Below are positions 2,400 to 62,867 of a DNA stretch of 64,000 nucleotides, piece after piece. Where the stretch lies: the NCBI GenBank assembly GCA_030141605.1, contig JAQGDQ010000162.1:248001-312000 (forward strand). The letters run 5' to 3'. Position numbers and translations under genes: made by a program. Every line of letters starts with the position of its first letter. Position 1 is the first letter of the stretch. A model generated the notes under the pieces. The model did no database searches, was not told the DNA's origin, and saw only the letters and a list, made by a program, of their open reading frames with translations. Source of the DNA: Tubiluchus corallicola (taxonomy: Eukaryota > Priapulida > Priapulimorpha > Priapulimorphida > Tubiluchidae).

Positions 2400-2810
2400 A
2401 GACTGCAATAAAGGTAGACCAGTTATTTTTTTAGATTATTCATTTAGATTTTTTAGATTGTTGTTTGTTATTTGATTAATGGCTGAATTTGTCATTTTCA
2501 CTCAGTCATGTTTTCTTATGAACATTGTCTAACTCGGACTTTTGCAAAACTCGGAACAAATTTTCCGGTCCTGAGGTATTCGAGTTATACGTGGTTTACT
2601 GTATTTTACACTAATGCCAGACTGCCAGTGTCATTAGCTAATGTTCACTAAATAAGGAAGGCCAGTTTTTCTGAATATGCAAAAGGCATACGCACAGTGT
2701 GCATGTACACTACAGTGCATTTTTGAGGTCATAATGTGAGAAGAGAATGAACATTGAGAATGAGACTTGTTAGAGAATTCATGTTAATTGTTAATGTATT
2801 GTAATTGCAG

Positions 2811-19626: not shown

Positions 19627-19761
19627 AATAACTTTAAGAGGTAATGAGCTATGAAAACAAGTGTAGTTTTTTTGGGCCACCCTGAATGTTAATTAAATTT
19701 TCAAATACATGTCGATGCTTGGATTTGCAGTTGTGGCTGTTGTAAGTTTCTTATATGCAAC

Positions 19762-25174: not shown

Positions 25175-25304
25175 TATTAATGTGAACTAGTTAGATAATT
25201 TTTCATTAATGGTTATCAATAATAAAATTGTACATGCACTTATACTAGTTAGGTGATATCAACTGTGTTTGTTTGAATTATGCCAGGAAGTCTTAGGAAC
25301 AACC

Positions 25305-32832: not shown

Positions 32833-32938
32833 TTAGTGTCGTTCATGGAACCAGTTGTTATCCGTGAGTACAAGCAATTCTATGATGACCTTGTTTATAT
32901 CTCCATTGTGTTTGTCTAGTAACCGTTTATTTAAGTCC
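32833..32938 (-). CDS. NBR1: NBR1 exon 23 (second half of UBA)
   Basis: Completes the split Arg codon and encodes DLNKRLLDKHNGDINKVIIE and LLVLTDNNWFHERH, then TAA (32833-32835). It matches the human ending pattern (DRQLNLRLLKKHNYN, LLQLNNNDW). It holds helices 2 and 3 of the ubiquitin-binding domain. Confidence 0.95.
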
Positions 32939-35900
32939 CTAAAAATAACAAAATACAAATTTCACAATTTTGACAAAGATCCAAGAAAAGGTAATGAATT
33001 TTTAAAGAAAGCCTTCGCACTATACTTTGCCAAATGTAGTGATTATTTTCTTCCAGTTTGATAATTAGAGAATAGGCTAATTAACACACTCCTGTTTTAG
33101 GCAACTTCAGATTATTCTTTGACAACCAGTTTAGTTCAATTTATGCTGTAAGCATTACAATTTTGTGTAAGAGAGACATTGGTAATTGTGCACATCGACT
33201 TGGAGACAAGATTTCATTAATAAGGAGACATAGTAAATATGGCAGTTTTAGTTTACTAGCCACAGGGATGGGTAATTAGACAACTTCTGTCTATCCTCGA
33301 GCAGATTTACCGGAATTTCCGGGAGGACCAGCATTGAATTTGCACCCTAGTAGTGTACAAGCTGTCCCAGCTAGCAACTGCAACTAGTACTATGATTATA
33401 ATTGAATTCACTCAACAATGGGAGATGATTTCACTCTGCACCTTTTTGTATACAAACAAATACCTGTTGCAAAAGCCCATATCCAGCAACCTATCCATGT
33501 GAGTCGTGGGTGGTCTCCATCCGGCATTCCACCACTGGGGAGGAGAATTTGGCTGTGGAGGAGTCCAAGCAGGAGGGGGTTCCCACGTTGGCTGCTGAGA
33601 AGGTGGAGTATAGGCTGGGGGAGGAACCCATGGTGCCTGCTGGGGAGGCGTCCAAGCCGGAGGTGGTTTCCAGGTCTGTTGCTTTGGAACGTACGGTGCT
33701 TGGAATCCGGCAGCCGCTGACCAAACGGGAGGCGTCCAGGTGTGAGAATGATGTGATGTATGGTGCTGTAAAAGCAAGTGATCTGGTTCAACATAATGAA
33801 AATGGAAGAAAAACTAGTACTGCATTAAGCTCTATCAAGGTAAAGCTTCACACTATACTATCAAGGCAAAGCTTCACACTATACTATCAAGGCAAAGCTT
33901 CACACTATACTATCAAGGCAAAGCTTCACACTATACTATCAAGGCAAAGCTTCACATTATACTATCAAGGCAAAGCTTCACACTATACTATCAAGGCAAA
34001 GCTTCACACTATACTATCAAGGCAAAGCTTCACACTATACTATCAAGGCAAGGCTTCACACTATACCATCAAGGCAAAGCTTCACACTATGCTATCAAGG
34101 CAAAGCTTCACACTATACTATCAAGGCAAAGCTTCACACTATACTATCAAGGTAAAGCTTCACACTATACTATCAAGGCAAAGCTTCACACTATACTATC
34201 AAGGCAAAGCTTCACACTATACTATCAAGGCAAAGCTTCACACTATGCTATCAAGGCAAAGCTTCACACTATACTATCAAGGCAAAGCTTCACACTATAC
34301 TGTCAAGGCAAAGCTTCGCACAATATTATCAATGCAAAGCTTCACACTATACTATCAAGGCAAAGCTTCACACTATACTATCAAGGCAGAGCTTCACACT
34401 ATACTATCAATGCAAAGCTTCACACTATACTATCAAGGCAAAGCTTCACACTATACTATCAAGGTAAAGCTTCACACTATACTATCAAGGCAAAGCTTCA
34501 CACTATACTATCAAGGCAAAGCTTCACACTATACTATCAAGGCAAAGCTTCACACTATACTATCAAGGCAAAGCTTCACACTATACTATCAAGGCAAAGC
34601 TTCACACTATACTATCAAGGCAAAGCTTCGCACAATATTATCAATGCAAAGCTTCACACTATACTATCAAGGCAAAGCTTCACACTATACTATCAAGGCA
34701 AAGCTTCACACTATACTATCAATGCAAAGCTTCACACTATACTATCAAGGCAAAGCTTCACATTATACTATCAAGGCAAGTCTTCACACTATGCTATCGA
34801 GACAAAACACTATACTATTAAGGCAAAGCTTTACACTATACTTCAAGTCAGACTGTCAACAGGTGATAGGTCACTGATTAGCCTTTTCTCAGGTATGCCC
34901 TCGGGATGACCTTTACTTTTGTCATCACTTTGTCCCAAAGTTATCCCATACCAAAAATCTCAAGGCTTCCCAAGTGGTACAGGTATTACTGGCTTAAAAG
35001 TCAAATTGTGAACTGATGAAGGATGCTGCATGGTTCCCAAACTTTGGAAGTCTGGGGACCTAATCAATAAAATAATTAGAAAAAATAAGCAAACTGATTC
35101 TATACCTGCTGCTGTTGTTGGCCATTCCCAGGGACACCAAACACGGTGTTCCAAGCACTAGTGAAGATCTGTCCGAGAAATCTGTCACTTCCAGTGGCAG
35201 CTGATGAAGTCACCTTACTGACAGGAGGAGAATTTGTGCGAGCTCCATGGCTCTCTGCTTCTGTGGATGCATCTTTGTCCTCTTGCTTGCTTTTGCAGGA
35301 ACCTTTTGGCCACAAAAATCGACAAGTTACAGAACTTTCTAATTTAGTAGTGCTTTTGTGCATATAAAGTTGACAACCCACCAAATGTTCTGGTATCCGA
35401 ATAGTGAACAAGCATCCTAATAATTCTCTTCTTTCAACAATACTAGAGAATTACCAGTATATACCTCCAAAGGACGTTCCCAATTACTGCAAATGTGACT
35501 GTGCCTTTATTTTTCTTGAATGTCAGTAATAGTAGTTTGCCAACTGGTCACCAAAGTACTTGGCAACTAAAGTTAAGCAATAGTGGGTTTGGATAGTAAA
35601 TGGAAGGGTAATAATTTAAGTACATTGTTCTGCATCTACCATCCCCATTATTGCCAAATTAAATGGTTTTTGCTCATTACTAGTTAGCTAAATATGAAAC
35701 AATTGCATCCCAGCATTGTGGACTTTCACTTTAATCGATGAGCTGTAGATTGCAACCTTATCAAACAAATATCAAGCGAAATGATTGCATCATGCAAAAG
35801 CTGTATATATATCCCTTATATTTACATGCAGTTATACAATTGGAAGTACTGGCAGACATATTTGCCAAAACTTCGAAATAAATTCAGTTCCATACTTGAA

Positions 35901-38900
35901 TTTTTCATCTGATGACCGCAACAAATTGTCAAAATCTGGATCGCAAATGGTGAGAAAGGATTAGGTTTATAGCTTTATATGTTGTAATGTAATTCATTTG
36001 GTTATTATAATAAATACAATTATTATAAGTAGTGAATTTTCTACTAATTAGTACTGCGGCATGTCTTTGTCATAACTCTAATTTGCGACACTTTCAGAAC
36101 AGATTCTCAGAAAAAAACTTATAGAAGTTTCACGCCAGTATATAGAAATAATAATGATCGGATACATATTGTGAGTGTAACATTTAAAACATTTTGCCAT
36201 GTACTAAAAGTAAGAGTTTATAAAAAGAAACACTCAGACAGAAAAATTTTAATATTAGCGTGTGCACTGGGTGCGATAATTTCAGTTCTAAATTGCATGA
36301 ATGACGCATTGTATTTTTTGAAAGTGAATAAACCACCGTGGTCTTTGAAAAAAGATCAAGTTTCAAAGTTTATTTATATATCATATTGCAAAAAATAGCA
36401 AATCATAGTGTGAAAGTTGAATGCGAATATGGCACATTAGAGTAAGGTGACCTTTTTCACAGCAATATCATCACACTTAGCCAAGGCCACCTTGAAAAAA
36501 GAAAAAACTAAGACAAAAGGGTCAGAGATCAAAATGGAGGAAAGAAAAAGGGATGGTAAGGGAAAAGAAACGGATAATCAATGTGTTAAAGAATGTTACA
36601 CGGACAAAGATGCAATCAATAATAAAAAAAAATCTAGTTATACAATTCTACTAAAAAAACGTGAGCAATGTGCTATGCTACATGACATACAAATCGCATG
36701 CTTAGCAGTTTGAAAGTTGACATACATTGGCATACATACAATGCAGCTTACAGTAGTGATCATTGAGTAATGTGTAAGAAGCCTTCTCACCTTCGTGCAC
36801 ATCACTGTGATCCTGTGATGCCTCCGTGATGCCTGAGTTTTCGTCTGACTTCACGACTACTAGTCCGTCTGCAGAAACAACAAACTTCCCACACGGGTCA
36901 CGGGTTTCCTCTAGATCTGCTGTGAGCCCATCGGATGAGACGACAAATTTGGGCATTGCAGAGCCTTTACAATATCTGGCACCAGAACATGATACCTGCA
37001 TCAAAGGAAATCCATCAAGGATCTGATTATTCAAGTGAAAACCTACATTAGACCACTTACTATCGTAATGTTCAGTTTCAGGATGATTATCACCGATCAC
37101 GTGCCTCTGTCTTCTGAATCCATTTTTCTATCTTATTCCATCAAGTGTCAATTAATGTAACTAAATTAAGGCCCAAACTCGGATGAATTGGGTAAGAGTA
37201 GTTAGGAAAGAGTATGGGATCTATGTATTTACATCTTACACAATTCCAATGTACTGATTATTAAAAGAATAAGAAAAAAGGCAAAGATATTTGCAGATTA
37301 AATTGGCCAAAATTTTTAAATAATGATTAGTGATTCTGAAAAGCAAAAAAATGTACGTGTTCAAATGAGAACGGCACATAATAAAAGCAAAATCTTTGGC
37401 TAAAAATGTGTACACTTCAGAATAGGATGTAAACTTGGCATGATGTATTGCAGACTTCTTGCTACAAAGCCAAAATTTGTACAAGTAGTAAGGAACTACT
37501 AGCTTGATCATTACCTCTACCAGCCCTTCATCTGTGGCCTCAAACTCCGGTGCCCTAAAACTGGGCTGTCGTTCCCTCACCACAGCTCTGGTTCTGTCCT
37601 TTCTTGGTGAATGCTCCGGGCAGAATTCATCTAAAGCAACAAAGTCTTTGTCAGTAAAGTTAGTGGTTTTTTGCAAATCTGCCTGTTCTTGTCTGTAAAT
37701 TATTATTCTGCACACTACAGACATAACAAAAGCCACGGTGACCGTGACACGGAAAGTACTCTTTCTCTATAAACATTAACTTTATACTACTATAATAATT
37801 CTATTCTACAATACTATACTGCATGTCTACCATACAACTACTATCATCCACAAACTACTACAAAACACTATACAACAGAACAATACAATATCATCTTTAC
37901 AATTGATTTTAACAGGTACGTTTAAATTATAGCAGATTGAATAAGCACTGCCTTTAGTTGTTTTGAAAATGTAATTTGCTATCTTTACAGCTATACTGTC
38001 AAAAACGTACTAGGTATATAAACAAATAATAAAGACATGCAATTTTAATTTTAAATTAGATGTTACAAAATTGTTTACTTTCTGATGCAATTCAGCCTTC
38101 CAATTCCTCTGAAAAAGTGAATTTTCCAACACAAACCTTAAGAGAAGCAGAGTACAAACCTTCATTCGCAGAAGTCGGTTCTTCGTAGTCAACCTGGACA
38201 TTATCTTCAGGGCTAGCCTGAACATCTCCCTGTGACACGGCTGCAAGTATATATTCTTCGTCACCACTCTCGTCTTTTTCTACAAAATTTGGACTGACGA
38301 CGTCCACGATGCTAGTAGATCTTTCCACTACGACGTCGCCATCACTTTCCAAGACACTGATCTTATCTTCCTGTATCACGTAATCATCCAGATTGCCAAT
38401 TTCTGCACAGCAAGAAAAAATAGAGGATTGCTACATCCAGATAATGATATAAAAACAACAGCTGCTGCTAGGGCTGGATTAAGGTGTGTTGGTGTCTTAA
38501 GCACACCTGCACCAGGTGGTGAACATAGTTTTATAGCTGAACAGATTATATTGTACATGCAATTTAATATGAAACATTCATTAATTTTTAGTTTACTGAA
38601 GTCACGCAAACTAGATTTCATTGAATTTGAACATACTGCTAGTTATAGTAGTTGACAGTCAACAGCATCTTCTAAAGTGCTTTACATTCTCTATGAAGAT
38701 GCCTACTTTGGGTGTGCCCCCACACATTGTACCCCCAAACAGATGTGCCCCCACACATTGTACGTTATTTATACACTTTTATTATCAATACATGCTTGTC
38801 CATGTAGCAGTCATATACACGTTATTAGCCGAGTATGCTTATAGGGTATCTCAGTTGTAAAATACTGTTTTCTGGGCTTCTAACAGGTTTGCTATAACAA

Positions 38901-41900
38901 TGTTATACTGCATTTGAATATACAATTAAAAACACTGGAAGCTCCACATTAGAATTTCATTTTCAACCTAACCAGACTCTGCCATTAACAACAGTATGAA
39001 GATATTAGTCCATATTTACGTGAAAGCTCAAACTAACTGTACAATAATTTTTATAATGAGACAACAGCACCAGTTATGAAGTCGTTAGCTGAACCTAGTA
39101 TTTCTACAGTATGCAAAAAATGAAGTAAAATCCAATCCAAAGAAAGTTTAAGTAAACTCCCAGTACCTGCCACTTTGGCTTGGCAATCATCTTCACCTTC
39201 GATGGTCCCGTCAATAACTTCATAGTCTGGAGATGTCGGCGTTTTCTCATCGTTACCTATCTTTGCTGGCACTCTGTCGGTGCTTGCAAGCAGGTGAGAC
39301 ACGATGTCGGCAGTTTCTTCTTTTGAAGCTGTATTTACAAAGTCAAACAGCTGAATGTTTATTTAAAGTGAAGCGTAAGTTTATTATCACCACTGTTATC
39401 AACTTCATTATCATCAACACGATGTTCAAACTTTGTATTATTATTATACCTGTCAAGCGTAAACTAATAAGCCTTTTCACAGTTTTGCTATGCACATGGG
39501 CAGTTGTTGTAGGTCAAAGGTCAAATGAACAGAGAGTGTCTTACTTAACTGCAACTGTCACGTGACCTTATGTATGTAACCACATGTAGGTGAAACGTGG
39601 TTACTTTAATTATCATACTACAAGTGTACAGTTTTAAACGTACGAGTTATTCTTATCTGAACACAGCTAGCAAAATAGCAGCAGCAATCCACGCAAAATG
39701 AAATAAATGAAGCAAAAATTAACACCAAGAATTGTTACTAATACAACAGTATGGGCCTCGAGGCATTGTCAAGTGTAAACAAATGGATTGTTTGATTCAG
39801 ATAACATTGTTAGGTTCACTTGACCATTGACCTTTTCACAATCATCGTCAAAATAATAATAATATCAATAACGATAACTGCTGGAATTGTGAAAAAAGTT
39901 TATTATAAGTATGAAATAAAATGAGAAACTAAATATGCTTGTCAGTTTACTACATCTGCTAGCAGGTTGCAGCACCTTGATTTCAGAAAACCAATGCATG
40001 CAAAAATCATACATCCATAGACAAACTATGGCACTGTACGTAACACGGCCCACTTTAATTTAATCATTCAAAAACAGCTGAATATTTTGCATGCTGCCCC
40101 TACAAGTCTAATACAGCAAGCAGATTTTTGTACTTCAAAACGCGGGTTAGAAAAGACATACCAAGATCTTGCTCCGCTCTGAGCTTTTCCATGGGAACAT
40201 TCGTGTCGAAGCAAAGAGGCAGGTTGACTACAATGTAATCGCTGTCAACACTGCTCACATCACTTTCTGCTTCCTCATCTTTCTTGTATTCGTCATCCAC
40301 AGCAGTAGCAACTTCTTCTTCTTCTTCTCCTGGTGGTTCTGGAGACTTGGATGGGGACACGTCTAAACAACAAAACATTTTACGGTTCAAGTTTACAATT
40401 CCCCCATGCAAAAAATTAATTCGTGAAGCAGATTAGGGTTAGGGTTAGGGTGTTTAAATTGTGTGGGGAACTGTAAGCTCCTTCCCATTTTATTATTACC
40501 ATTGAATAAGCTGCTATTATTCATGCTTCCTTACACCTGAAAACAGAGGAAGCCACACATCTCCAAAAATCCACATTAAAAACGCATAAATCTATCTAAA
40601 CCTAATTTTCCACCTTATTTCTCACTCAATTTAGATCTACATAAAACTGACCCCTGCGAAACAGATCGGATCTAGAATACACTAATTTAAGAGGTGATTA
40701 AGAATTTATTCATTTAGCAAGTATATTTTGTTACAGCCTCAGAATCATGACTGCGTAATATCACCCAGTAATGATACGTGAAGGTACATTTGATAGCTGG
40801 CAATGTGTTCTTTCCGCTCACCTTTGTGTAAATAATTTTGTACACAGATTGCATCGTATGACAAATCTCGTAATGCAGAATTAAAGGAAAAACCAAGTCT
40901 TGAACAAAATTTAATTTAATGCCTTTTAATATACAACTAAAAACATTGAACTCACCATATATTATACGGGCATAAAATGCAAAAGAAATTTAAATATTTC
41001 TTATCTCCTGCCAGATGAACATCGCATTTGAAAAAATGACATACGCTAGTGTTTGCTGGGCAGCATGAATGCCGCGAAAGCAAGCTGTGGTAAAGGTATG
41101 CATTGCAAAATTTCTACATTTCACTCAGATGTTCCATTATTTTAACATTGTACTTAACTGTTTATGTAAAACTTACTCTTTGAATCAATTATGACCACAT
41201 TTAAAGTGGCTACATAGCTTTAAATCACAGGATTATATCTTGAAATATGTAAGTTTAGATTAATTTACAGATTTTTGTTGACTTTCAGATATGCAAGCAA
41301 ACTAACGAGCCCTGCCTAGAGAGTGCTCTGTAAATTAAAAAAGACTGCTGAACCACCAGGCGAAATAAGTGTTTCTATTACACAGTAACCGGATGACATA
41401 TGTTTCATTCAAATAAACTCAACTTTTCGAGAGATTTGGCTTTTGCTTTACGTAATATGTCACAGAAGCAAAAAAAAACACAGAATCCAGATGTGCATTG
41501 CACAAAAACAGAAATTTTGTAGCAAACACACAGGACAGCACAGCTGAACTTCTTTACTAAACATAGTCACATGCACTGGTGCTAAGTTTGTAATCGCATT
41601 TACAGAGGCGTTGCAAGGTGGGGGCGACACGTGGCAATTGCCCCTGGGTGAAAAATTTTCCTACAGGTCAATGATTGTTAATTATTAATTATTAATCCAC
41701 CAGCAACAAAACAATTAACAAAGATTTTTCAAACTACGGCAAAATTGCCTAGTCAGAGGTCATTGTAGATCATCAGAGATAATTAATAACTTAATTACTA
41801 CATGGAGCCTAGAAAAAAGGCTAATGTCATTACTTAACACCGTGTGTAGGGTGTCGTGTGGCTTAGCAGATCAATGATTTTGGGAGAAACAGCTTCTGCT

Positions 41901-50900: not shown

Positions 50901-53900
50901 AGCCCCGGGGCCACCCTAGTTTCGTCTAGACACCGGTTGCTATAGCAACAGGTAGTAGGAGAATTCTGTTGCATAAAGTTTGCACCAAACTTGCATTGAG
51001 GTGATAAAACTGTATTTCGTTTGTCTTGGCGGATGCACAGTCTTCAGCAAACAGCTATATATTGGGAAAACACAACATAAATATTGTAGTTTTAGGTTAT
51101 AAATATCATCTTTTTTAGACCAGAATAATGCAACAAGTAGTGTTTTGGTGCTTTAAATTAGGTAAAAAATCCTTGGTAAATTAAAAAATTGATGTATGCT
51201 AAAGATCTACCAAGGTAAGTGAAATATTTTACACAAAGTAAATAAAGTCTTCATTAAAATGTAACATGCATTGTTAAATGTGAAATGATCAGCGTCCTTA
51301 AAACTAAGCTACACGGGGAGTCATTAAGCGAGAATTTACCGTATTTGTAAAAAACTGATGGGATATTCAAATCATCAGTTGCAACACATCTAATGACTTA
51401 AGTTTCTCTCACAAATTACTATAGTCAATGTTTTGGCTACTATTTTGCACTACACTGAAAATGTTAACGCTTGCCTTGAGATAATATATGGGAATTATGT
51501 AACTGTAACTGAAACTGTGATGAAATCTACAGGTGTCCATATGTACAATTATGAACACAATGTGTCCAAACGAAAAGCATGGTAGACTTACTTCTGCCAG
51601 GAAGCTGTCGTCTTCTCGAAGCACTATGCTTACATTCTGCGCAGCCATGAGAAGTCCGAGAGCGTTTGGTCTTTACCAGGCGCTTGTATACACGACTTGT
51701 TACATCATGCACCAGTTGACTTTTAAACTGTTTTAAATAAAATTTCAATAACATCAAAGGCTGACAATGTAGATTATTTCAGTTACCACCAAATTTTCTT
51801 GATTTCATTTATAGCAGTCGGATGCCTGCGACAAAAGTTCTTCTCTAGTAGGTGTTCCTACTAAGAAGTAGGCAGTGATTCAGCTTGTTTACTAAACAGT
51901 TGCTATGGTGACAGGAGTGTGGCAGTTAGTGTAAATGAAAGTGTCAACAGTGGCAAATGTTTTTATAAAATGGAACTAAAATAAAACAGAACTAGAATGT
52001 CAAATGTTCATTTTAAAATCTAGAACATAGATGATGCAGGATCAATATCTTTTTTCACAGTTATGACAGCTAATCTTGCCATACAACATCTATAAAAACA
52101 TTTCTCTACATTTTTCCAGGTTGCAAAAACCAGTAGGAAAACAACAGAAAATTTAATTTATATCCACTTCAATTCCATCTGGTGTAAAAACCAAATACCT
52201 CAACAAATTTCAATGTGTTCTTAACCATTTCTGTGAAACACTTCTCTCACTCATGATCTGAACAGACTAGAAAGCAATAATGCTTAAAGGTTTTTCAAGG
52301 TTTTTGGTAAAACATTATGCTACTTGCTACGTATCTGGCTTCCACAAAGTTTTGATTTAGCTGCAACAGTTAGGCCTGCATAAACAGTTGGGTTTCACAA
52401 CACAAACTGTGTTTCATTCAGGGGCATAGCCAGGTCCTAATGTTAGAGGGAGAAAGCACATAAAAAGGGATCATGACACATGAAGCAATTATATATTTGT
52501 CTATGCCACAACAATAATAACAAATGACAAGAATATATTATAATATTTAAATTAAGAGGTACTTGATCCTTGGTTCAATCAATTAACCTTGGTAAATGAG
52601 TTGCTCATTTCAAAAGCACGGGAGGCAGGTTGGTCAAATAAAGTAATAAAGCAGGCTGAAAATCCACCAATTTTGAAAAAAATGTGCTTAGGAGCAGTTG
52701 CTCTCCTTGCTCCCATATTAGCTATGCCACTTGTTTCATTGGTGAAGATAACAGCAGCATTTGAAATGTTTGGAGCTTTACTTACATAAATTATTTAAAT
52801 GTTTTAATGCAGTAGACTTAAAAAATGCAGATGCCTGTCTTTCGGCTTACAAGAACATTCTTAGTTAGACATCAAAATTGTGAGACTTATTTTGTCGATA
52901 TCATACATCCACGCACTTACCGCTGTCATATACTCGAGAAACCACGGCGGGGGTTGTCCCGACTCCAGACTACTTGTCGACAATGCTACAGAGCTACACC
53001 TGACCTCTTCTGCTAATCTGTCATCCGCATCAGGACCAGCGCATTCATGCACGGCATCATCCCCTCTTTCTGCTTCCGATAACTTAACATAATCCACGTC
53101 ATCCATCCCCGAGAGGAACATTTCGGAGCAGGTGTCGGATTCTCCACTTGGCGAGGTCATTTCTTCTAGTTCGGGCATGGAACAAAATGACTCGTCCGAG
53201 GAGTTTTCCAATGGAATCCAGTACCAGTGGCAAAGAGAATCCTGGTGAAAAGATGTTATTATATTATTACATGAACATTTAAACAAATGAAATCTAAACA
53301 TGTAAAAATAATCTTCTGAATATGACTGCACAAGCTGCAATACAATTTATGACATAACTAGAAGAATTAGAAAACCATGATTTTATAATATGATTCAAAC
53401 TAAATATTCAGTATTTTGAATTCGAACAGAGTTGGAAAGATTATTGAACCATGAGTGAAGACCGGTCTTACAAAGGTCAGGATTATTACTTGATTCTGTT
53501 CAACTACATACAATTTGTTTAAGAATTGAGCACAAAAAGCCCAGTTATGTTTCAAACATTTTACTGATAAAGAATGTATGAAGTTGAAGTGGTCTATAAT
53601 TTTAGGGTCGAATCAAATTCAAACTAAAAAAACTCCTTCGAGCTCAAACATTTGCTGCTCACCCCTATCTTACAATAATTCTACATATGTCATCTTCCAC
53701 ACCTTTTTCATTGAAAAGCTTTGTATCTGCTCCAAGTGTCTCCATGCAAGAGATATGCCGTTTGGGTGCAAAAAGTAACAACTAATAAAATTTCTAATTT
53801 CTTATGCTTCTTAGAAATGAATCGACTGTTCGAAGTACTAAGAATTATTAACATTAGAAGGATCAGGCACTGCAAATGACCCAGTTTTTGTGTGTCTCTG

Positions 53901-55725
53901 GAATCTCTGGAGGACATGTTCCTATTTTTTTTGTTACTTTTCCTAGTTTAGTACTAACTACTACTGCACAGTATTTCAGGAAAGAAATGCTACCTTGCTA
54001 AAAAGACGACTACCTAAAAGGACCATCTGCATAAACTGATGCCAATACATATTGTTTTATGTAAATCATCTCTATGTACTGACACTGCAATAGTTAATGC
54101 GAACGTGAATCAATTAACACACATATTGACATCTTATTGCGAGCTAAAAGCTTGTACTCTGAGCATTCTTCATTGTCAACTTTCAGTCAGGCCACCAGAC
54201 ACCTCGACTTATTACAGGTTCTCAAAGCACTGCGAAATCTGCTATTAGATGAGTCTGATAGAGACGATTCAAATGATGAGACGGAAGCAGTCTTAGAAAA
54301 TGCATTGGAAGCAAGAGAGTCGTCTTCAGAGCCTTCTTCTGCCCATTCTGATGACCATGACACAACTGAACATTGAAGGGACTATGCAAGGTACTATGTA
54401 GAGGTAGCAGAAGGAACAATGGTGTTTAACCAGACATTGGTTTTCAATTAGGCTACGTGACATTTGTCTTTAGTAAATTTGTCTTAAGCTACATGACACT
54501 GTAATTAGTAAGAAGAGATGCTATTGATAAGATGCCATTGAATTGCTTTATGTAAGCAAAAGCAACAAACAAGAACAGCACAAAATAAAAGTTGATCAAG
54601 CATAAATTTTGAAGTTATTACCTACAGGTATAGTCTTAATTTATTTTTCCTTGACTCAATGCACTTAATACAAAAACATACAAATAAAAGAAAAATATTA
54701 TGTTAGTGGTATAGAAGACTGGGCAGTACGAAGGACCATGTGGGTCATAAACGTAAAGAAGTTAAAGTGCCCATTAAGTCTCAACTTTTTTTATTTTTCA
54801 CAGAAGTTTTCGTCCTTCAAAAAATAAAAAATGTAATAGTCACTTTGACTTCCCTACGATTATGACCATTGCAAGTCTCTGAAGAGCTCTATCTTATTTA
54901 CTAACTAAGGACCATGTGGGTCATCTAGCGTGTGGTCATCAAGTCAGCTACCTAGTACGTTTCAGACAAGTGAGTTACCTTTTCTCTATCAGTATCACAA
55001 TTAGCGGGAGTACTGTTGCCAACGTCATTTATACAGCCAGTGACTGGAGATGCATGTCCATTAATGAATGCATTAGCAATTTGTGCAGGGTTGTTACTCG
55101 AATGCATAGAATGTGCTTTCTTGTCTTGCACAGTAATTTCAGCTATGCTTGTGTACCTTTGTGCCGGTGTCTATTAAAAACAACAAATAATTAAATCATT
55201 ATGCAAAATTCAATCGAATGTTTTATAATGAAAGAAAGGAATAGTCAAATGATTGGCATTTTCAACAGTGATGCTGCTTTTCCTAGGGAAATATTTTTGA
55301 GTCTGGTGCAACATGCGCGATCCATAATTTTTGATTATGTTGTTCTTTTTGTTTATTATCATACGCTGACAAATTTTAGCTTCTAACGAAATGCATTTCA
55401 AAATAAAGCCTAGTATGAGTTAGTTTCAAGTGAGCATAATAACCTGGCTTTCTGGTCTAGGTGGCTCCACTTTTCTTTCCTCACGAGGCACTGACGACAA
55501 TGTGGAAGATTTATTATGTGCTTTATCTTTCAGAGATCCTCCTATATGAACGCAAAGAAAAAATAAGAAATCATCAATAAATCAGAAACAGGACAGCAGA
55601 CAACACAGTCTAACCTGCAAGTTAGCAAGCCAAACAGGAATAGTTAAAATGACATTTTTGTTTTATGTTTAGTAATTATTGCAACGTAAAAATAGCGAGT
55701 GAGCAGGAGAGAGAAAAGGAGAGAA

Positions 55726-55790
<65 letters not shown>

Positions 55791-58700
55791 AGAGAGAGAG
55801 AGAGAGACAGACACAGAGAGAGAGAGAGACAGAGAGAAAGAGAGAGAGACAGAGAGAGAGAAAGGGAGGAGAGGGAGAACAACAGAAAGAGGAAAGCAGG
55901 CAACAACAGTAAGTAATAGAGAGAGAACACTGAGAGAGATGGCATCTCACCTGTTGGCTTAGATTTTGAAGACTGTGACACAGCACTATTGGCATGTCTG
56001 GTATCATAGTAATCTTGATCGAACATGTAAACTTTCATGTTCAGAGGCATATCAATATGGTGTCTTGCTATTAGCTGAAAAATAATTCCAGTAATATACA
56101 ATTATTTATTATAATTTATTTATAATATTGTACCATTAAAAATAATTGTTCGGTTGGCCAATTTATTTAACGGCAGCATAAATTATCATTTTTTAATTGG
56201 TTACATTAATCTAATGTTGTTAACGAAGAGTAATAATTCTTATTAAACATGAGTAAAAATTAAACGAGTCTTATATGGGCCTTTCTCCAAATGTTGAAAA
56301 AAGCCCGGCATAAAGCCTAAGTATTATGATGGACCAACTTTGAACTGATGAATTTAATCCTAGGTAAGTTACTGATCTCCTGAAATACGGAATACAAGAT
56401 TTCCAAACGACTGGCAAAATACACAAAAATGAAGGTGTTTTCTTTCTACTCCTTCAATAATTCGTCAATGAAACGCATCAGACTGAGATGATCTGTAAAC
56501 ATTATAGAGTTAAGCGAGGAATTCGAGAAATGCGAGAAAAGGAAAAGCAGGCCAAGCAGCAGAATTAATAATCAAATTTCAATAAAATATGGTAGTTGTT
56601 TTTACTGTGTTAGATCTTATGAGTTAGATGTATACATCTAGGCTTCAGGAATTAACTTGTTACTCATCTCTCCCTCGCTGCTGTTGCTGTTGTTTGAAGT
56701 GACTGAAGAACTGCCTTAGAGAATTCGTAACTAATGGCCACAAACTTCAACTGGATGATAGCAGGACATAATGTATGTGAAACCAGATATCAGTGCAACT
56801 TTAAATTCATAGCAGGTACTCTAAAGGCCTTCTTCACAAAGGCGTGACATAGAGGGAATATTGTTGTTGATTAATTTTATAAGTGACCAGACAGTATTGG
56901 CAGACCGATCTAACAAAGGTCTTTTATTTGTGCATTAAGCAAACTCGATCAACACGGTGAAATGAAAGATAAATTAACTACATTGATCTGTTTGACATTT
57001 TTTCTTTCTTTTTAAAATGAAATTTTATTATGAAATTGAAAATGACAGCATTGTGGATGACAATGTGAAACGTTTTTGTGAAAATATAATCAATAATCAA
57101 TTTAGTGCATACACGCAAATAGCTTAGGTTTGTGTACATTGAAATGACATAATAATGCCAAAGAGGACAAAGAAAAATTGCCTACAATGTAACTGTACAG
57201 TGGAATCTTGGCAGCCATGCTTTTGCATGCTGGAACATTGGAAATTAACCTAGAGACAAATTACTTTTACAGAACATCCCTCTTCCTCCTAGGTTGGTCG
57301 TCGACAGTAGATGCAATCACATCGCGGCTAATGGTGTTAATTCCAAAGATTGTCCTTATTACTCTAGTATATGATGATACCAACTGTTGAAGATTTTGAC
57401 TTACAATTATTTACAATTGATCATGTGGGGAGCACCCTACAAAATGTCTCGTTTGTTTAATAAAAGTATTAACCTAGAGAATAATAGAAAACACTAATCA
57501 ACATCAAAACCTGTTCCAGATGCTCAAGTTTAACACATACAAGATTCAAAAGCATAGCAATGAGCAAAAAAGTACCATAGTTGTGCTATCTCTGGGTGTT
57601 TTAACTAATGATACAATAAGACAGCTAATAAGAAATTGCGTGGAAAAATCCATGATTTACATTCACTGTTAAATCAGAAAATTTTATAATTAATTCATAA
57701 TTTTGAAATGCCATACTGTTGAATCTTTGTTAATTACAAAATTTTCTGATTTAACAGTGAGCCTAAATCATAGATTTCCCCCCACATAATTTATCATTAG
57801 TTTAGCTATGTTTACATAAATAAACATATTGCAATTACTGTCCACTACACGAAACCTAAAAGCAAAGAATATCAAAAAAGTATGAGTCACTTACAGACAA
57901 AGCTTCTGCAAGTTCTGCTTCACTATTCACAGACACCTATAAATATTTATAAATGGTAATGTTAAAAATGCATTTGAACAATTTTAGCATAACAATGCTT
58001 ATGATATCAATATATATATTGAAAGTTTGACTAATGTATGCATGTAGACGATGAACATTTAACCTTGAGTTGCATATCACTGGTGAGCTAGAAAAAAAAT
58101 TGGGGCAACTTGTTTCAAAAAAGTTTCCAATTTTTTCCAAAGTTTTTTAACATAGTCATCTGTGTCCAAATGTCGGAACGAGTTTACAATTCCCCACACA
58201 ATGTAAACACACTAACCCTAAGCCTAGCCCTAACCTTTACCATATCCGAATCAAACCCTAACCTCCAACCTAATTCTAATCTGCTTCACGAACTAATCTC
58301 TTGTATGTGGGGAATTGTAAACTTTAGCTCAAATGTCATACCACAAGCCTCATAAATAAGTAAAAAAGTTCAAGAATAAAAATATCTGTTTTGCACATTT
58401 TGCACAAGTGGAGTCAGAAGCAGCCAACTTAATTTGTGCTGGCTGTTGCTAAAGGCACCTCTTGGCACCGCTGGAAAAACCACCACAATTTCCAGGATTA
58501 AAAATGCACATAAAAAGAAAGTGGAGAAGCAAAAGGGTGGAGACTTAAGAGTTGCAGGTTGGACTCTCGCCTTTGGTCTATATAACTGTGAAGTTTTACG
58601 CTTTGCTTTGTGGCGAAAAAGTCACTAAAAGTTAAAATGCCACGTTATGCATGTGACATTTCTAGAAAAATGATAATTTCTTGTATAATCAACATGGTGA

Positions 58701-61700
58701 TAGCTAAAATTTATATGTTCTTTGTCGAAAATTGGAAGCCAAGACACTTCTAAGGTTGATTTGGTAAAATAATGTACTAAACAATTATAAAAAAAAATCA
58801 AATTTGCGTACATGAAATCAAAATATAAAAACTAAACTACATTTACACTGTTACTTGTCACGTACAGTGCAAGTATGATTCAATTCACACAAAACTGGGA
58901 AAGTGCACATACTACAAAAGGTTCTTTGGCATCATGGGAGCTACAATAATTTTACTCTATTACTAACTACTATATCAGTAAAGACAGGATCTTCTCTATG
59001 TTCAAAGGCAAGTTAAACTGGAAATTTTCATGACTCATAGTCACGCAGCAACTGAACTCAATTTTCATCAAATATTTAAGCAGTAACCAGCCACAAACAC
59101 AAGCAATATGAGTAAAACTAGTACATATGCTGCATCTGTTATAGCAAGTAGCCTGCAGGTACAATATACATAGCAACCTTGAAAACAGTGAAATGAGGCA
59201 ATATAGCAGTGCATTGCATTAGACCAGTGAAATCTTGCTTGTTGTATTATTGTGCATGTGCGTGTGTGTGTGCACATATGATGCAGGTGCACATGGGTGC
59301 ATGCAGAAGAAAGGGGATGAAAAAAGCTGAAGATGGCAAAATTCACCGGCTATATAGACCTGCCATTTGATTAAATTTACCTGCTCATGACGCACAGATA
59401 ACTGCTTTCTGACGCATGTCATGAGCAAGTCATAAAAATGACTTTGTTATAAATAACATTTAGTTCACTGTTGTTGACCTTAGGAATGGCAAATATTACT
59501 TCACCCAGATGATTAGAAGTCATGACAAAAATTATTGCTGAGCTGCCGAGTAAATCATTTGTTTGCAAAAGGTAAACTCAACCTATGTGAGGCACATTTT
59601 TAATACTTAACCATTTCACTACGTAGTTGTTGCTTTTTAACTGGGCCAATTGCGTTTTGCACATTTGACAAATAACATCTTGTGGTGTGTTACTAAAACA
59701 ATCTTGTAAATAAACAAATAGTCATCTGTTACTCAACACAAATATTGAATACTAGTTTTATTTGCACACATGCACACACATATGTGCACATGTGCATGCA
59801 CTCACACACTCACGTGCAAGCAAACTTATTTTTAGTAACCAATTTTCACAGACATCATAATACTAATCCTTATTATGCAATCATTTTATAAGAAATGCAG
59901 AACCAGCCACTAAACATATGTTTCACCATCCACCAGCAAGTCATTTTGTGTGAGAACATACCATATAATATAGTATTGTGGAATGCATCTGACTTCAGAT
60001 GCTTATTGGCTGGGGTAGCTTTACTTGTTGCAAAGCAACCCCAATCCCATGGATGTTAAACTTTTCCACAATGTTTTCGCATGGTCATAGTAACAAAACA
60101 AACAGACCTGAGTGACTGTGCTTAGTGCTGAGCTTGGGCGGTAGTCTACTGCCTTCTGTTCTTTACACAAAGCACACAGGCAGCAGTGTACCGCCTTCCA
60201 AAGTAAAAGGGTTGTTTAAGTTGACGATAAGAAGAATTCTAATGAATTCTTCAGTAACAAAGAGTCAAAGACAGAATCATTAACACCAGTTAGCCTTCAA
60301 TAATTTTCTAGTGCAGCTGTCTGGTTTTCTATTTTTACTTATACACGCACATATATAAATATAATATATATATATATATGGAGAAAACGAAATACACCGG
60401 TACTGCTGATAGCAGCTAATTAATTATACTAGTTAACTCATGTAATAATACTAGCTTACTTAATTATGTTACTAGTATGTATCTAATTATACTAATTATC
60501 CGTACAAATTTTTCATAGACGGAAACAGCAAGTTGGTAACAAGGCACAGTTCATGCAAAACATGTTATAACTGCTAAAATTCCTGAATGTTCATCAACAC
60601 AAAATTGTACTTTGCCAGACGTAGCCCTCAATCGCAGGGTCTACTCAACACAGACTATCTCATTCTCTATGGGAAAAACCCAAACTAGTACAGATATTTT
60701 AGCCCGTACAGATTATTGGCCATATCACACTACTACAATATTGCAAGAAAAAAGACAAAATCGTAAAAAAAGTAAAAGCACGTGACCTTACCTCGTCATC
60801 TTCTTCGTCCAAGTATGTCACAGCAAGACTTTCAATGCCATGATGAAGTTTTAGCTGAAATGACCACAAAGCTATTGACACAATAAACCAGGAGAAAATG
60901 ATATAATAACTTAAAAGAAAACTGCCTGAAGAAAAATATGTATTAGTTAAAGTTAGAACAGCCTTACAGCAACTGAGTATAAGAAAGATACGAATTTCCT
61001 TTTCTAAACTGCACCATATTTTATATGGAAAAACCAAAAAAAATTGAATTAGATTGCTTTAAGTCTGGAGGAACATTTGCTAGATTTTCTGATTGTGTGG
61101 TCATTCATATACCAAACAGCAATTAAATTTATGATAGAGGATATTCTATGGCAAAAAAGGAGCAACTGATACATGACGTAATAAGATCCAGTGTAGAGAA
61201 TGGCTTGCAATTGAAATTTGATCCTCCACAATGCTAGATTGGTTAGAAAGGGCAGACTTACAGATATTCAGTTAGCGTAAAGTAAATTTATTTGTTCCTT
61301 GTATAAAACATTAAAAAACACAATGCGCTGAAACAACAGTGCGTAAAGAATAATTTTGCTTATCATGTTTCTTTGCAATTACAACAAATGGAGCCACTGT
61401 CATTTCATACTGCAACTGACCGAGCAAACAGGCATCCAAAATACACTTACAATGGACAGTCACAATAGCGTTGTAACAATACACCTAACTCACGATGAGA
61501 CACATATCACACTAATAACCTCTTGCTACAATATGCACCTGAGTTGATATTTGCAGACTTTACAAAAAATTAAATGAAGTCATTGATAATAGATGCTAAA
61601 CAAATTTTATCAAACAGCAGTTTTAGGACTGCTAAATGATAAAATAATTCAGTAGGCTATTGTTTGCATTGTAAGCTGCCAGAAAGACACAAAGATTTAA

Positions 61701-62867
61701 AAGTTGCAAGTGCATTTTCTGGTTTACTTTTGACATTTTGCCAGCAAAAAACGTAATTAGCCTACTACAGATTAAACAAACACCTTAAATTGTCAACTGG
61801 TTTCTTTCGCTACTAGCAGTGCCTGTGTCAAGTCAATTACTGCTCACTGCACTAATTGACAGATATTTACAATACAGCCTGCAGCCGCAGCTTGAATTAC
61901 TTCAAATCGTTTTCATCAGCATATGGTCAAGCGAATGCTATTTTTGCAAATATTATTGACCTATTATCACGATGCTGGTACATTTTTTGGGAAAACAAAT
62001 ATCATAATAAAAGATATCACGATACATCGTCACAGCGATGTTTCGTTACAGGCCTAGTCATCAACGATCATTACTAACATATAACAGCAACATTATAAAT
62101 GCTTCACATAATGATGTAGCCACACAATACAGTTATGCATTTGTGAACCAAAACAATACAAGTCCACTAAACTTTCCAAACAACTAATATCCATCAATTT
62201 ATCATGTTTGTGTTACAAATTAAATGCAATATTTTAACAACTTGCTGTCAATTGTTGTATGTGTCACTTTGCCTTACGATTCTCCATTGTTATCACACGA
62301 AAACTGTCTAAATTAAAAGGTGTTAATTAAAACAAATCATATCCTGTTTGAAACTTATGCATCAATTTCAATCAGTTAAACGCTGAGCTTGAGATTTTGC
62401 AGTTGATTTCATGGTCTCGTTATTAGCACACCCACAAACAGTTGACATCAACAGCTGACCGATTTCACGGTCATGTCCTTTTACTTTGTATAGAACAATA
62501 GAAAAAAATCTTGTCTAAAATTGCAACTTTAGTAAGATTATGGTCAATTCCTTACGATGATGATGTTTTGAATTTAGTTTTTTTGAGAATATTAAATTGG
62601 ACTGTTAATTTCGTTTTGAATATCAGTATATTGAATTTTTTCAGTATTTAATGCTATTGATCTACTTGAATTAGCTCCTTAAACGTAAAAATTGTTTACC
62701 ATAAGTTCCAAATCCCGCCACGTTATTGTAGAAGGCAACGTCCAAACTTCAGATGAAGAAGCACAATTGGGATCGTCATTACGGAATTTTGATGCGTTGC
62801 TTTTACCCAGATTGCCTTCACCAAATTTTACCACAGAAAACGAAATGTCAATCAGACTTGCAGACAT
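32833..62867 (-). CDS. NBR1: NBR1 selective autophagy receptor, complete 23-exon gene
   Basis: Autophagy cargo receptor that binds ubiquitinated cargo through its UBA and ATG8/LC3 through LIR motifs, with oligomerisation through PB1. Coding exons in order: 62867-62700, 60854-60792, 57936-57895, 56074-55951, 55541-55444, 55170-54979, 53241-52921, 51727-51592, 49594-49286, 47822-47585, 46280-46095, 45856-45727, 44256-44142, 43846-43086, 42475-42304, 40362-40162, 39328-39167, 38402-38160, 37630-37515, 36995-36791, 35302-35106, 33765-33464, 32938-32833. All borders are GT-AG and all phases agree, giving 1,528 residues. Order: PB1 (about 5-115), ZZ (432-475), charged coil (484-563), FW (626-735), LIR region (847-1125), amphipathic helix (1368-1383), Trp-Pro repeats (1394-1480), UBA (1483-1523). 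Human NBR1 has 966 residues. Confidence 0.93.
33464..33765 (-). CDS. NBR1: NBR1 exon 22 (Trp-Pro repeats and first UBA helix)
   Basis: 302 nt; acceptor GCTTTTACAG, donor GTATTTGT. Encodes a His-rich start, then repeats around TWTPP, TWKPPPAWTPPQ, APWVPPPAYTPP and TWEPPPAWTPPQ, then MDRLLDMGFCN of UBA helix 1 with the MGF loop. The Trp-Pro block is not present in the human protein at this place. Confidence 0.93.
33832..34845. repeat. 26-bp satellite array, about 39 copies
   Basis: Unit AAAGCTTCACACTATACTAT followed by CAAGGC, period 26. Copies are nearly identical, with scattered A/G and C/T changes. A variant pair (CTTCGCACAATATTATCAAT) at 34314 recurs at 34626, exactly 312 bases or 12 units later, so part of the array is a higher-order repeat. 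The array is in NBR1 intron 21. The unit lacks stop codons in all plus frames, which creates a long but artefactual open frame at 33510-34877. Confidence 0.95.
35106..35302 (-). CDS. NBR1: NBR1 exon 21 (amphipathic helix)
   Basis: 197 nt; donor GTATAGAAT. Encodes a charged linker, then SDRFLGQIFTSAWNTVFGVP and a poly-Gln end. The helix aligns in position and pattern with the membrane-binding amphipathic J helix before the UBA in human NBR1 (GALSVAASAYKALFAGPP). Helix assignment is by pattern only. Confidence 0.88.
36791..36995 (-). CDS. NBR1: NBR1 exon 20 (duplicated KFVVSxDGL motif)
   Basis: 205 nt, phase 0 start, donor GTGAGAAGG. Encodes KFVVSSDGL (1275-1283) and KFVVSADGL (1296-1304) separated by an acidic stretch, then VVVKSDENSG. 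No known domain was recognised. The codons of the two motifs differ at most third positions. Confidence 0.88.
37515..37630 (-). CDS. NBR1: NBR1 exon 19
   Basis: 116 nt; acceptor TTGCTTTAG, donor GTAATGATC. Encodes DEFCPEHSPRKDRTRAVVRE and then RQPSFRAPEFEATDEGLVE. A charged linker with no recognised domain. Confidence 0.85.
38160..38402 (-). CDS. NBR1: NBR1 exon 18 (acidic, Tyr motifs)
   Basis: 243 nt, symmetric phase 1-1. Encodes LDDYVIQEDKISVLESDGDV and DESGDEEYILAAVSQ among acidic residues. The tyrosines sit in acidic contexts like LIR motifs but lack a clean hydrophobic residue at +3, so they are weak candidates. Confidence 0.87.
39167..39328 (-). CDS. NBR1: NBR1 exon 17 (candidate LIR DYEVI)
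   Basis: 162 nt, symmetric phase 1-1; acceptor GTAAATACAG, donor GTACTGGG. Encodes ASKEETADIVSHLL and then KTPTSPDYEVIDGTIEGEDD. Tyr1121 in DYEVI fits the aromatic-x-x-aliphatic LC3-binding pattern with flanking acidic residues. Confidence 0.88.
39466..39849. mobile_element. CCTTTTCACA-terminated DNA element, copy 1
   Basis: Left end AATAAGCCTTTTCACAGTTT; right end, opposite strand, ATTGTGAAAAGG read inward as CCTTTTCACAATC. It is homologous in reverse to 46431-46992, sharing for example TAGGTCAAAGGTCAAATGAA and TAACAATTCTTGG words. About 384 bp, non-coding, in NBR1 intron 16. Confidence 0.7.
40162..40362 (-). CDS. NBR1: NBR1 exon 16 (main LIR DYIVV)
   Basis: 201 nt, symmetric phase 1-1. 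Encodes PSKSPEPPGEEEEE, then SSVDSDYIVVNLPLCFDTNV. This corresponds to the principal human LC3-interacting region (SSEDYIIILPECFDT): aromatic Tyr1061 with acidic residues before it and the conserved CFDT after it. Confidence 0.93.
40391..40478. mobile_element. Small foldback element with TTAGGG words
   Basis: Ends GTTTACAATTCCCCC and, inverted, GAGCTTACAGTTCCCCACAC. Inside is GATTAGGGTTAGGGTTAGGG. It is the reverse-oriented, shorter relative of 58181-58323. The telomere-like words belong to the element, not to a telomere. Confidence 0.7.
41603..42251. mobile_element. hAT-like element in NBR1 intron 15
   Basis: Left end CAGAGGCGTTGCAAGG; right end on the opposite strand CAGTAGCGTAGCAAGTGC. 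Flanks CGCATTTA (41595-41602) and TGCATTTA (42252-42259) match 7 of 8. 649 bp, collinear with 13028-13634. The right end is 52 bases from exon 15. Confidence 0.85.
42304..42475 (-). CDS. NBR1: NBR1 exon 15
   Basis: 172 nt; acceptor TTTTTGTGCAG, donor GTAAGTAAG. Encodes an acidic LAGGNKKEEEECNEE segment and a predicted helix EYELLERLAKP. No domain was recognised. Confidence 0.87.
43086..43846 (-). CDS. NBR1: NBR1 exon 14 (FW end and WLVL motif)
   Basis: Largest exon, 761 nt. Begins with ESHWTLCSEGRRFGHRLWVS, the end of the FW domain. A long disordered-looking region follows, containing SSNLDLDWLVLKGDWHK. Trp847 in DLDWLVL fits a Trp-type LIR closely. It ends with a helical NEIWEMIQNRIDVENEEKRR. 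Confidence 0.92.
44142..44256 (-). CDS. NBR1: NBR1 exon 13 (FW domain middle)
   Basis: 115 nt, phase 0 start, donor GTACTTTTT. Encodes LKYLWGSVKAVEGGAVISQL and then QPGEKGIVSVQCIAPSTP, a core strand set of the FW immunoglobulin-like fold. Confidence 0.92.
45727..45856 (-). CDS. NBR1: NBR1 exon 12 (FW domain start)
   Basis: 130 nt. Encodes DAKFLWDESIPDGVQMKPGS, then RFIKHWRVMNNGTVTWP. It matches the FW entry sequence (DENLPDGTHLQPGTKFIKHW, TGNVKW) of NBR1. The first base completes a split Tyr codon. Confidence 0.95.
46095..46280 (-). CDS. NBR1: NBR1 exon 11
   Basis: 186 nt; donor GTAAGTAGC. Encodes a Lys/Glu-rich linker between coiled coil and FW domain, ending SSIPYVPFGNW. The donor is set by phase: only TGGTA|GTAAGT joins exon 12 in frame as Tyr. 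Confidence 0.9.
46431..46992. mobile_element. CCTTTTCACA-terminated DNA element, copy 2
   Basis: Reverse-oriented relative of 39466-39849, running from GATTGTGAAAAGGTCAAAGG to AACTGTGAAAAGGCTTATT. It is longer because of a 165-bp insertion at 46546-46710. It lies in NBR1 intron 10. Confidence 0.72.
46546..46710 (+). mobile_element. Retroposon-like insertion with 9-bp duplication and (ATG)n tail
   Basis: Absent from the homologous element at 39466-39849. Flanked on both sides by TTAGTAACA (46537-46545 and 46711-46719). The 3' end is GGGCATATGATGATGATGATG-like, a simple-repeat tail as in many SINE or truncated LINE copies. No ORF. Confidence 0.75.
47585..47822 (-). CDS. NBR1: NBR1 exon 10 (charged coiled coil)
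   Basis: 238 nt; acceptor ATTTTGCAG, donor GTGATTATA. Encodes ATADLVKKWEELRKLKELVK and then a run of Lys/Glu heptads, ending with a short Cys-containing CHCRETGMCKN. It sits where the human protein has its first coiled coil. Confidence 0.9.
49286..49594 (-). CDS. NBR1: NBR1 exon 9 (ZZ zinc finger)
   Basis: 309 nt; acceptor AATTCTGCAG, donor GTAAGTTAC. Encodes CVFCCRNITGIRYKCAFCAD then FVLCDSCEANEC and HLKDHAFIRI. Paired cysteines and two histidines form the cross-braced ZZ zinc finger that in NBR1/p62 binds N-degrons or partners. Confidence 0.95.
50770..51345. repeat. Diverged copy of the 11098-12682 outer element
   Basis: AAGCCCCGGGGCCACCCTAG, then GTTGCTATAGCAACAGGTAG and TTGCATAAAGTTTGCACC match the 11410-11520 part of that element. 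The right end CATTAAGCGAGAATTTACCG is near its TIR. Boundaries are approximate. It lies in NBR1 intron 8. Confidence 0.5.
51592..51727 (-). CDS. NBR1: NBR1 exon 8
   Basis: 136 nt; acceptor TTTAAAACAG, donor GTAAGTCTA. Encodes FKSQLVHDVTSRVYKRLVKT and then KRSRTSHGCAECKHSASRRR, a strongly basic linker with a CAEC pair before the ZZ domain. Confidence 0.87.
52419..52732. mobile_element. Second hAT-like family, perfect 8-bp duplication
   Basis: Left end CAGGGGCATAGCCAGG; right end on the opposite strand AAGTGGCATAGCTAA. GTTTCATT is repeated exactly at 52411-52418 and 52733-52740. 314 bp, non-coding. A relative of its right half is at 6270-6425. It lies in NBR1 intron 7. Confidence 0.85.
52921..53241 (-). 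CDS. NBR1: NBR1 exon 7 (candidate LIR DYVKL)
   Basis: 321 nt, phase 0 at both ends, donor GTAAGTGCG. Encodes DSLCHWYWIPLENSSDESFC and SGMDDVDYVKLSEAERGD plus a Ser-rich tail. Tyr280 in DDVDYVKL fits the LIR pattern. The HWYWIPLE stretch is unusual and conserved function is unknown. Confidence 0.9.
54137..54376 (+). other. Possible terminal exon or gene relic antisense in NBR1 intron 6
   Basis: Open frame whose last 60 codons read LLQVLKALRNLLLDESDRDD then SNDETEAVLENALEARESSS and an acidic, Ser-rich end. An acceptor-like CAACTTTCAG ends at 54186 and an AATAAA lies near 54583. The composition is more protein-like than other frames here, but no family was recognised and no upstream exon was found. 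Confidence 0.3.
54979..55170 (-). CDS. NBR1: NBR1 exon 6
   Basis: 192 nt, phase 0, acceptor TTTTTAATAG, donor GTAACTCAC. Encodes TPAQRYTSIAEITVQDKKAH and a Ser/Asn/Ala-rich linker ending DTDREK. No domain was recognised. Confidence 0.85.
55444..55541 (-). CDS. NBR1: NBR1 exon 5
   Basis: 98 nt; acceptor GTTCATATAG, donor GTTATTATG (a weak site). Encodes GSLKDKAHNKSSTLSSVPRE then ERKVEPPRPESQ, a flexible linker after the PB1 domain. Confidence 0.8.
55726..55870. repeat. (GA)n microsatellite
   Basis: Near-pure AGAGAG run with CAGACAC-type interruptions. It lies in NBR1 intron 4, about 80 bases downstream of the exon 4 donor. In the transcript it reads as a long CU-rich tract. Long open frames over it in several phases are artefacts. 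Confidence 0.95.
55951..56074 (-). CDS. NBR1: NBR1 exon 4 (end of PB1)
   Basis: 124 nt; acceptor TATTTTTCAG, donor GTGAGATGC. Encodes LIARHHIDMPLNMKVYMFDQ, the last strand of PB1, then DYYDTRHANSAVSQSSKSKP. The NMKVYMFDQD strand corresponds to QLQMQVHE in human NBR1. Confidence 0.92.
57633..57792. mobile_element. 160-bp foldback element
   Basis: Arms of about 60 bases: left contains CACTGTTAAATCAGAAAATT, right contains its complement AATTTTCTGATTTAACAGTG. The outer ends AAATTGCGTGG and CCACATAATTT also pair. It would fold into one long hairpin and lies in NBR1 intron 3. Confidence 0.75.
57895..57936 (-). CDS. NBR1: NBR1 exon 3 (PB1)
   Basis: 42-nt micro-exon, phase 0; acceptor ATATTTATAG, donor GTAAGTGAC. 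Encodes VSVNSEAELAEALS. Follows directly on the acidic OPCA loop of exon 2 and matches EVSINSQGEYEEALK in human NBR1. Confidence 0.93.
58181..58323. mobile_element. 143-bp foldback element with CCCTAA words
   Basis: Perfect 18-bp inverted ends: AGTTTACAATTCCCCACA and TGTGGGGAATTGTAAACT. The interior has several CCCTAA/CCCTAAC words. It is related to 40391-40478. It lies in NBR1 intron 2. Confidence 0.85.
60792..60854 (-). CDS. NBR1: NBR1 exon 2 (PB1 acidic loop)
   Basis: 63 nt, phase 0; donor GTAAGGTCA. Encodes LKLHHGIESLAVTYLDEEDD E (21 residues). The YLDEEDDE stretch is the acidic OPCA motif used in PB1-PB1 pairing (human YLDEENEE). Confidence 0.95.
62700..62867 (-). CDS. NBR1: NBR1 exon 1 (start of PB1)
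   Basis: 168 nt from ATG at 62867-62865; donor GTAAACAAT. Encodes MSASLIDISFSVVKFGEGNL, then a Ser/Asn-rich insert and SEVWTLPSTITWRDLELM. It aligns with the human start (MEPQVTLNVTFKNE, then TTWADIEAMV). The ATG is two bases after ACCTTTAG, so a 5' leader exon is likely upstream. Confidence 0.85.

Follow-up and report, generated by a model that had tools for sequence, protein, structure and literature searches.

The locus described here raises the question of whether NBR1 has been enlarged in a non-vertebrate animal, and whether the added length brings further docking motifs for ATG8. Within the window (the whole 64-kb stretch of DNA that was analysed), the gene lies on the minus strand and runs from an ATG at 62867 to a stop at 32833. 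It is apparently a genuine, complete gene for a long form of NBR1. The curated model (32833..62867) has 22 exons and 1,484 amino acids (aa), and domain matches along the protein follow the order PB1, ZZ, FW, LIR1, and UBA. The full, ordered set of NBR1 domains that the original prediction had read at this position was found, with ZZ below the Pfam cut-off.

Many of the exons were already revealed by a scan for splice sites and open frames alone. Dynamic-programming models, anchored at ATG 62867 and stop 32833 and scored on splice sites and codons (with codon tables trained partly on eye-picked exons), contained 23, 20, and 18 exons and encoded 1,531, 1,425, and 1,351 aa at intron penalties of −11, −13, and −15, respectively. 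A penalty of −6 over-called exons (76 to 77 exons; 1,807 to 1,829 aa), and that model was discarded. Sampling drew 150 models under each of two settings, with bonuses on three homology-chosen exons, and gave 5 to 95% ranges of 21 to 24 exons and 1,420 to 1,570 aa at the first setting and 18 to 22 exons and 1,351 to 1,521 aa at the second. For the curated model, exon 60194-60108 of the 23-exon model was dropped as not PB1-like and the PB1-shaped 57936-57895 was put in its place; 51636-51592 was likewise exchanged for 51727-51677. Exon 54381-54196 (weak acceptor; only in the −11 model and in <20% of sampled models) was omitted, as was an open stretch at about 46290-46098, which appeared coding and phase-symmetric by eye but fell outside the top two candidates for its intron. 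The curated model has 0 internal stops, and its phase agreement is by construction. A size of about 1,500 aa in about 22 exons is well supported; the originally predicted 23 exons and 1,528 residues hold as approximations, their exact values going beyond what sequence can prove.

The linker exons were set against chance using a codon table that was not trained on them (built on 1,779 codons from seven exons that carry domains plus three neighbouring frames). Exon-like segments scoring ≥18 numbered 14 on the gene strand (11 independent of the table, 3 being or overlapping training exons), whereas the plus strand had three and the reversed sequence two; on inspection, one of the three plus-strand segments was a GA repeat and another entered a 26-bp minisatellite. 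That the linker exons outscore these controls argues against the view that they are false and that the actual protein is about as long as its vertebrate counterparts. Such a view, or its variant in which two genes have been fused, draws on a model built from genomic DNA alone, on weak sites or low sampling in 51727-51677, 37714-37515, and 35302-35106, and on a smallest model of 1,351 aa; yet that figure comes from the stiffest dynamic-programming setting, and an in-phase, stop-free chain exists. A fusion would also have to split one collinear set (PB1, ZZ, and FW towards the N terminus, LIR1 and UBA towards the C terminus) and so break a known family. We regard fusion or false exons as very improbable.

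PB1 (about aa 1 to 112; 55951..62867) occupies exons 1 to 4 of the curated model (62867-62700, 60854-60792, 57936-57895, and 56074-55951). Pfam PB1 matched the full protein at 7.8e-7, and the best PDB match was NBR1 chain 2g4s (6e-10, query residues 43 to 97), the first 42 residues falling outside the PDB matches. The 42-nt exon 57936-57895 was itself chosen with a PB1-shaped pattern; this was the sole PB1-shaped site in the stretch searched, with two donor choices. The domain retains an acidic YLDEEDDE stretch, and in a single pairwise alignment, made with the p62 encoded elsewhere in this genome, an Asp aligns to the lysine of the p62 string MAITVKIYL. According to the accessible part of PMC9582228, PB1 of metazoan NBR1 is without the basic lysine.

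Exons 5 to 7 (55541-55444, 55170-54979, and 53241-52921), placed by sampling and the curated model, form the linker between PB1 and ZZ, exon 7 being present in 100% and 99% of sampled models at the two settings. The short exon 8 (51677..51727), found by sampling, is an uncertain candidate for the start of a coiled coil before ZZ (43% of sampled models at one setting with bonus, <20% at the other), which we take to resemble human CC1. The ZZ zinc finger lies on exon 9 (49286..49649); p62 ZZ chains were its best PDB matches (3.6e-5), and Pfam ZZ gave 0.94 in the full protein and 8.9e-4 alone (19.5 bits, under the 21.4 cut-off). Exon 10 (47585..47822), supported by sampling and the curated model, encodes a Lys/Glu-rich linker preceding FW, a possible site for the self-interacting coiled coil of NBR1. 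FW (about aa 555 to 662) spans exons 11 to 13 (45856-45727, 44256-44142, and 43846-43086), with Pfam N_BRCA1_IG at 4.6e-25 in the full protein (88.7 bits versus a cut-off of 28) and NBR1 chain 4ole as the closest PDB match (1.2e-27, versus 3.2e-16 for ILRUN). UBA begins at the end of exon 21 (33464..33765) and is completed, with the stop, on exon 22 (32833..32938). Its best PDB match was NBR1 chain 2mgw (3.5e-8), and UBA_NBR1_C gave 4.3e-5 in the full protein (23.8 bits, under the cut-off of 27) and 3.5e-7 alone (30.4 bits, over it). Among solved structures, PB1, FW, and UBA come closest to NBR1 chains, presumably human; a PDB search with the LIR1 region returned 0 matches.

The genome (343.5 Mb, 2,344 contigs) was searched by scoring best candidates only. 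FW matches numbered at least three: the NBR1 locus itself, a gene like ILRUN, and a sulfatase frame of bacterial type. The ILRUN-like gene has the FW domain in common with NBR1, yet its exon is closest to ILRUN in the PDB (2.8e-20, versus 0.018 for NBR1). The sulfatase-type open frame (784 aa; G000:C31:209446-212691) combines an FW-like domain with a sorting-like C terminus, and its contig may come from a bacterial contaminant or symbiont, judging by its bacterial look by eye. Only one NBR1-type FW was found among the best candidates scored, and NBR1 is apparently single-copy in this genome. This lone FW, together with the PB1, FW, and UBA matches, supports the identity of the locus, which on sequence grounds is that of an NBR1 orthologue. 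PB1 matches likewise numbered at least three: a PB1 kinase, p62/SQSTM1, and a PB1 exon resembling PAR6 (named by eye); PB1 of NBR1 is absent from them because it is split over exons. The p62 gene (G000:C2012) shares PB1, ZZ, UBA, and a likely LIR (WTHV) with NBR1, and unlike it encodes 399 aa from a likely ATG in a single open frame (so that its coding part is intronless), with no FW match and with the PB1 lysine present. The presence of FW at our locus and of this separate p62 elsewhere sets the locus apart from p62. ATG8 gave at least 10 matching stretches on at least 6 contigs, which may include duplicate haplotypes; GABARAP-like, GATE-16-like, and LC3-like frames are among them (types by eye).

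Human NBR1 has 966 aa and the same domains in identical order. The protein described here is about 500 aa longer than human NBR1, the one orthologue used for the size comparison. It differs in additional residues close to where PB1 begins, in Trp/Pro repeats preceding UBA, in more numerous LIR-like motifs, and in long PB1-ZZ and FW-UBA linkers. As the original prediction had it, the extra length is concentrated ahead of ZZ and in the stretch from FW to UBA: with manually set domain borders, the curated model has linkers of 306 aa (PB1-ZZ), 90 aa (ZZ-FW), and 776 aa (FW-UBA). No enlarged invertebrate NBR1 featured among the matches listed from the open-licence PMC papers searched, and the accessible part of PMC10621281 contains nothing on NBR1.

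The linkers are rich in S, E, and D, and from this composition and the absence of domain matches the additional residues seem to form disordered linker. Exon 19 (36791..36995; curated model) has a short internal repeat, KFVVS(S/A)DGL, noted by eye. Exon 21 carries imperfect tandem repeats of PPPAWTPPQ and one PPxY string (PPAY), with a self-match score of 90 versus maxima of 39 to 45 in 10 whole-protein shuffles. A weak candidate for an amphipathic helix, DRFLGQIFTSAWNTVFG, lies on exon 20 (35106..35302 by sampling; acceptor at 35389 or 35302) and is separated from UBA by the Trp/Pro-rich exon 21; its hydrophobic moment (0.33 to 0.45) is outside the top 12 of the protein and indistinguishable from background. 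In mammalian NBR1, an amphipathic helix lies next to UBA. The composition of the linkers would also suit an ordinary NBR1 whose acidic, disordered linkers have grown neutrally, with LIR1 (perhaps LIR2) at work and the other motifs arising by chance or as by-products of acidic sequence dotted with aromatic residues. Against general neutral growth, by the usual sizes of p62, ENGASE, DUS, and TANGO2 proteins, neither p62 of the same genome nor the neighbouring ENGASE-, DUS-, and TANGO2-like frames (683, 510, and 305 aa) look enlarged.

LIR-like motifs were counted in 1,172 linker residues of the curated model, with 20,000 shuffles for the xLIR expectation. The xLIR pattern, taken as given in the accessible part of PMC5119064, was seen four times versus 1.08 expected (P 0.022, one of four patterns, uncorrected), at LDWLVL, SDYIVV, PDYEVI, and KDFVAL, so that LIR1 itself is among the four; the strict cLIR pattern was seen 0 times in the same residues (0.20 expected). 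The looser [DE][WFY]xx[LIV], a post hoc pattern selected once the sequence had been read, occurred 7 times versus 1.75 expected (P 0.0017, uncorrected), and [WFY]xx[LIV] 18 times versus 10.1 (P 0.0068, uncorrected). In the p62 of the same genome, cLIR, xLIR, and [DE][WFY]xx[LIV] each scored 0; its likely LIR was missed, which makes the patterns unreliable.

Along the protein, the seven [DE][WFY]xx[LIV] matches are DYVKL on exon 7 (53094-53080), the weaker DFKKL and DWLVL (43433-43419), both in the linker part of exon 13 beyond FW, EYELL on exon 14 (42304..42475; motif at 42370-42356), DYIVV on exon 15 (40162..40362; 40240-40226), DYEVI on exon 16 (39167..39328; 39227-39213), and DFVAL on exon 18 (37515..37714; 37646-37632). 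Human NBR1 carries LIR1 EDYIII and LIR2 LSFELL, as given in the same part of PMC5119064. SDYIVV, which lies between FW and UBA and fits xLIR and not cLIR, is by its sequence the counterpart of LIR1. TEYELL on exon 14 may be the equivalent of LIR2, a match that we assume is aided by an NTPxDVxPxxSP box. The acidic exon 17 (38160..38402; sampling and curated model) has LIR-related strings, DYVIQ and EYILA, that fail the motif, and holds no fitting LIR. Most of the motifs are on exons present in 68 to 100% of sampled models (exon 16 with its given borders in 68% and 81% at the two settings), and KDFVAL on about 60%; the exon 18 acceptor is uncertain (37766, 37714, or 37630), and the choice of 37630 excludes KDFVAL.

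Neutral growth of the linkers would accord with an xLIR excess that is marginal and a cLIR count of zero, and it sits less well with the looser-motif excess, post hoc though that is, and with the steady sampling of most motif exons. We consider it a real possibility, if somewhat short of probable. The reading that we hold to be narrowly probable is an NBR1 orthologue with accessory ATG8-docking motifs around LIR1 in a disordered linker, raising avidity or widening the choice of ATG8. It is favoured by the LIR-like excess, frame-neutral exons, the p62 and PB1 kinase of this genome, multiple ATG8 matches, and the precedent of Atg19, and weakened by the marginal excess that includes LIR1, the lack of cLIR, the post hoc pattern, the unreliability of the patterns, the uncertain borders of the KDFVAL exon, and the lack of clear exon duplication. 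Among exons 7 and 13 to 19, 3 of 28 pairs were similar at P<0.03 (300 shuffles each; about 1 expected), including DFKKLD (exon 13) with DYEVID (exon 16), and an origin of the LIR exons by exon duplication is not claimed. The originally predicted wider ATG8 binding through added motifs thus receives modest support from the excess over shuffles, offset by the zero for cLIR and the inclusion of LIR1; the wider cargo range that was also predicted is conjectural.

As a member of the well-known NBR1 family, the product should work like other NBR1s, as a soluble selective-autophagy receptor. The locus encodes the four domains and the LIR1 site; by homology, the acidic face of PB1 would link the protein to p62, UBA would take up ubiquitinated cargo, FW would contact protein partners, and LIR1 would anchor the assembly at the growing autophagosome by binding lipidated ATG8 there. 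Accessory LIRs in the linkers are plausible, with DWLVL, TEYELL, PDYEVI, and KDFVAL as candidates around LIR1 and possibly DYVKL near the N terminus; they could raise avidity or broaden the choice among several ATG8 proteins, as do the accessory LIRs of Atg19. In the accessible parts of the sources, this yeast NBR1 homologue combines a canonical LIR with accessory LIR-like sites that give avidity (PMC5009254), and it is without ZZ, while human NBR1 carries two LIRs (PMC9582228). The accessory sites of Atg19 have been tested, whereas those described here are predicted from sequence motifs.

Exons 15, 16, and 17 are each of phase 1-1 in the curated model, so that any one could be skipped without a frame shift (the alternative end of exon 17 at 38137 is not frame-neutral). 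LIR1 and PDYEVI both sit on such exons, and skipping might remove the exon 16 motif or LIR1 itself. That the FW-UBA linker has become an array of ATG8-docking motifs around LIR1, with alternative splicing tuning ATG8 valency or isoform choice in an animal with several ATG8 genes, we think unlikely; if true, it would give animals a parallel to the Atg19 accessory LIRs. An invertebrate NBR1 with p62 and several ATG8 matches in one genome offers a test bed for which NBR1 parts (second LIR, amphipathic helix, and linker motifs) are ancestral among animals and which were added in vertebrates.

The remainder of the window contains further genes and repeats. Pfam searches of eight neighbouring frames left two without a match. 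On the plus strand are a DHHC palmitoyltransferase (2788-3387) and three single open frames: a glycosyl hydrolase family 85, ENGASE-like frame (19693-21744; 683 aa), a dihydrouridine synthase domain frame (22797-24329; 510 aa), and a TANGO2 domain frame (25257-26174; 305 aa). On the minus strand are a protein-kinase exon (12634-12924) and an Attenuator-of-Hedgehog family protein (29624-30226). The 26-bp minisatellite (33832-34847; about 39 copies, 93% matches) sits within the intron that separates exon 20 from exon 21 and gives rise to spurious long open frames on the plus strand. Repeats also occur at 1937-2311 (76-bp tandem unit, 4.9 copies, 99% matches) and 22628-22758 (65-bp unit, two identical copies).
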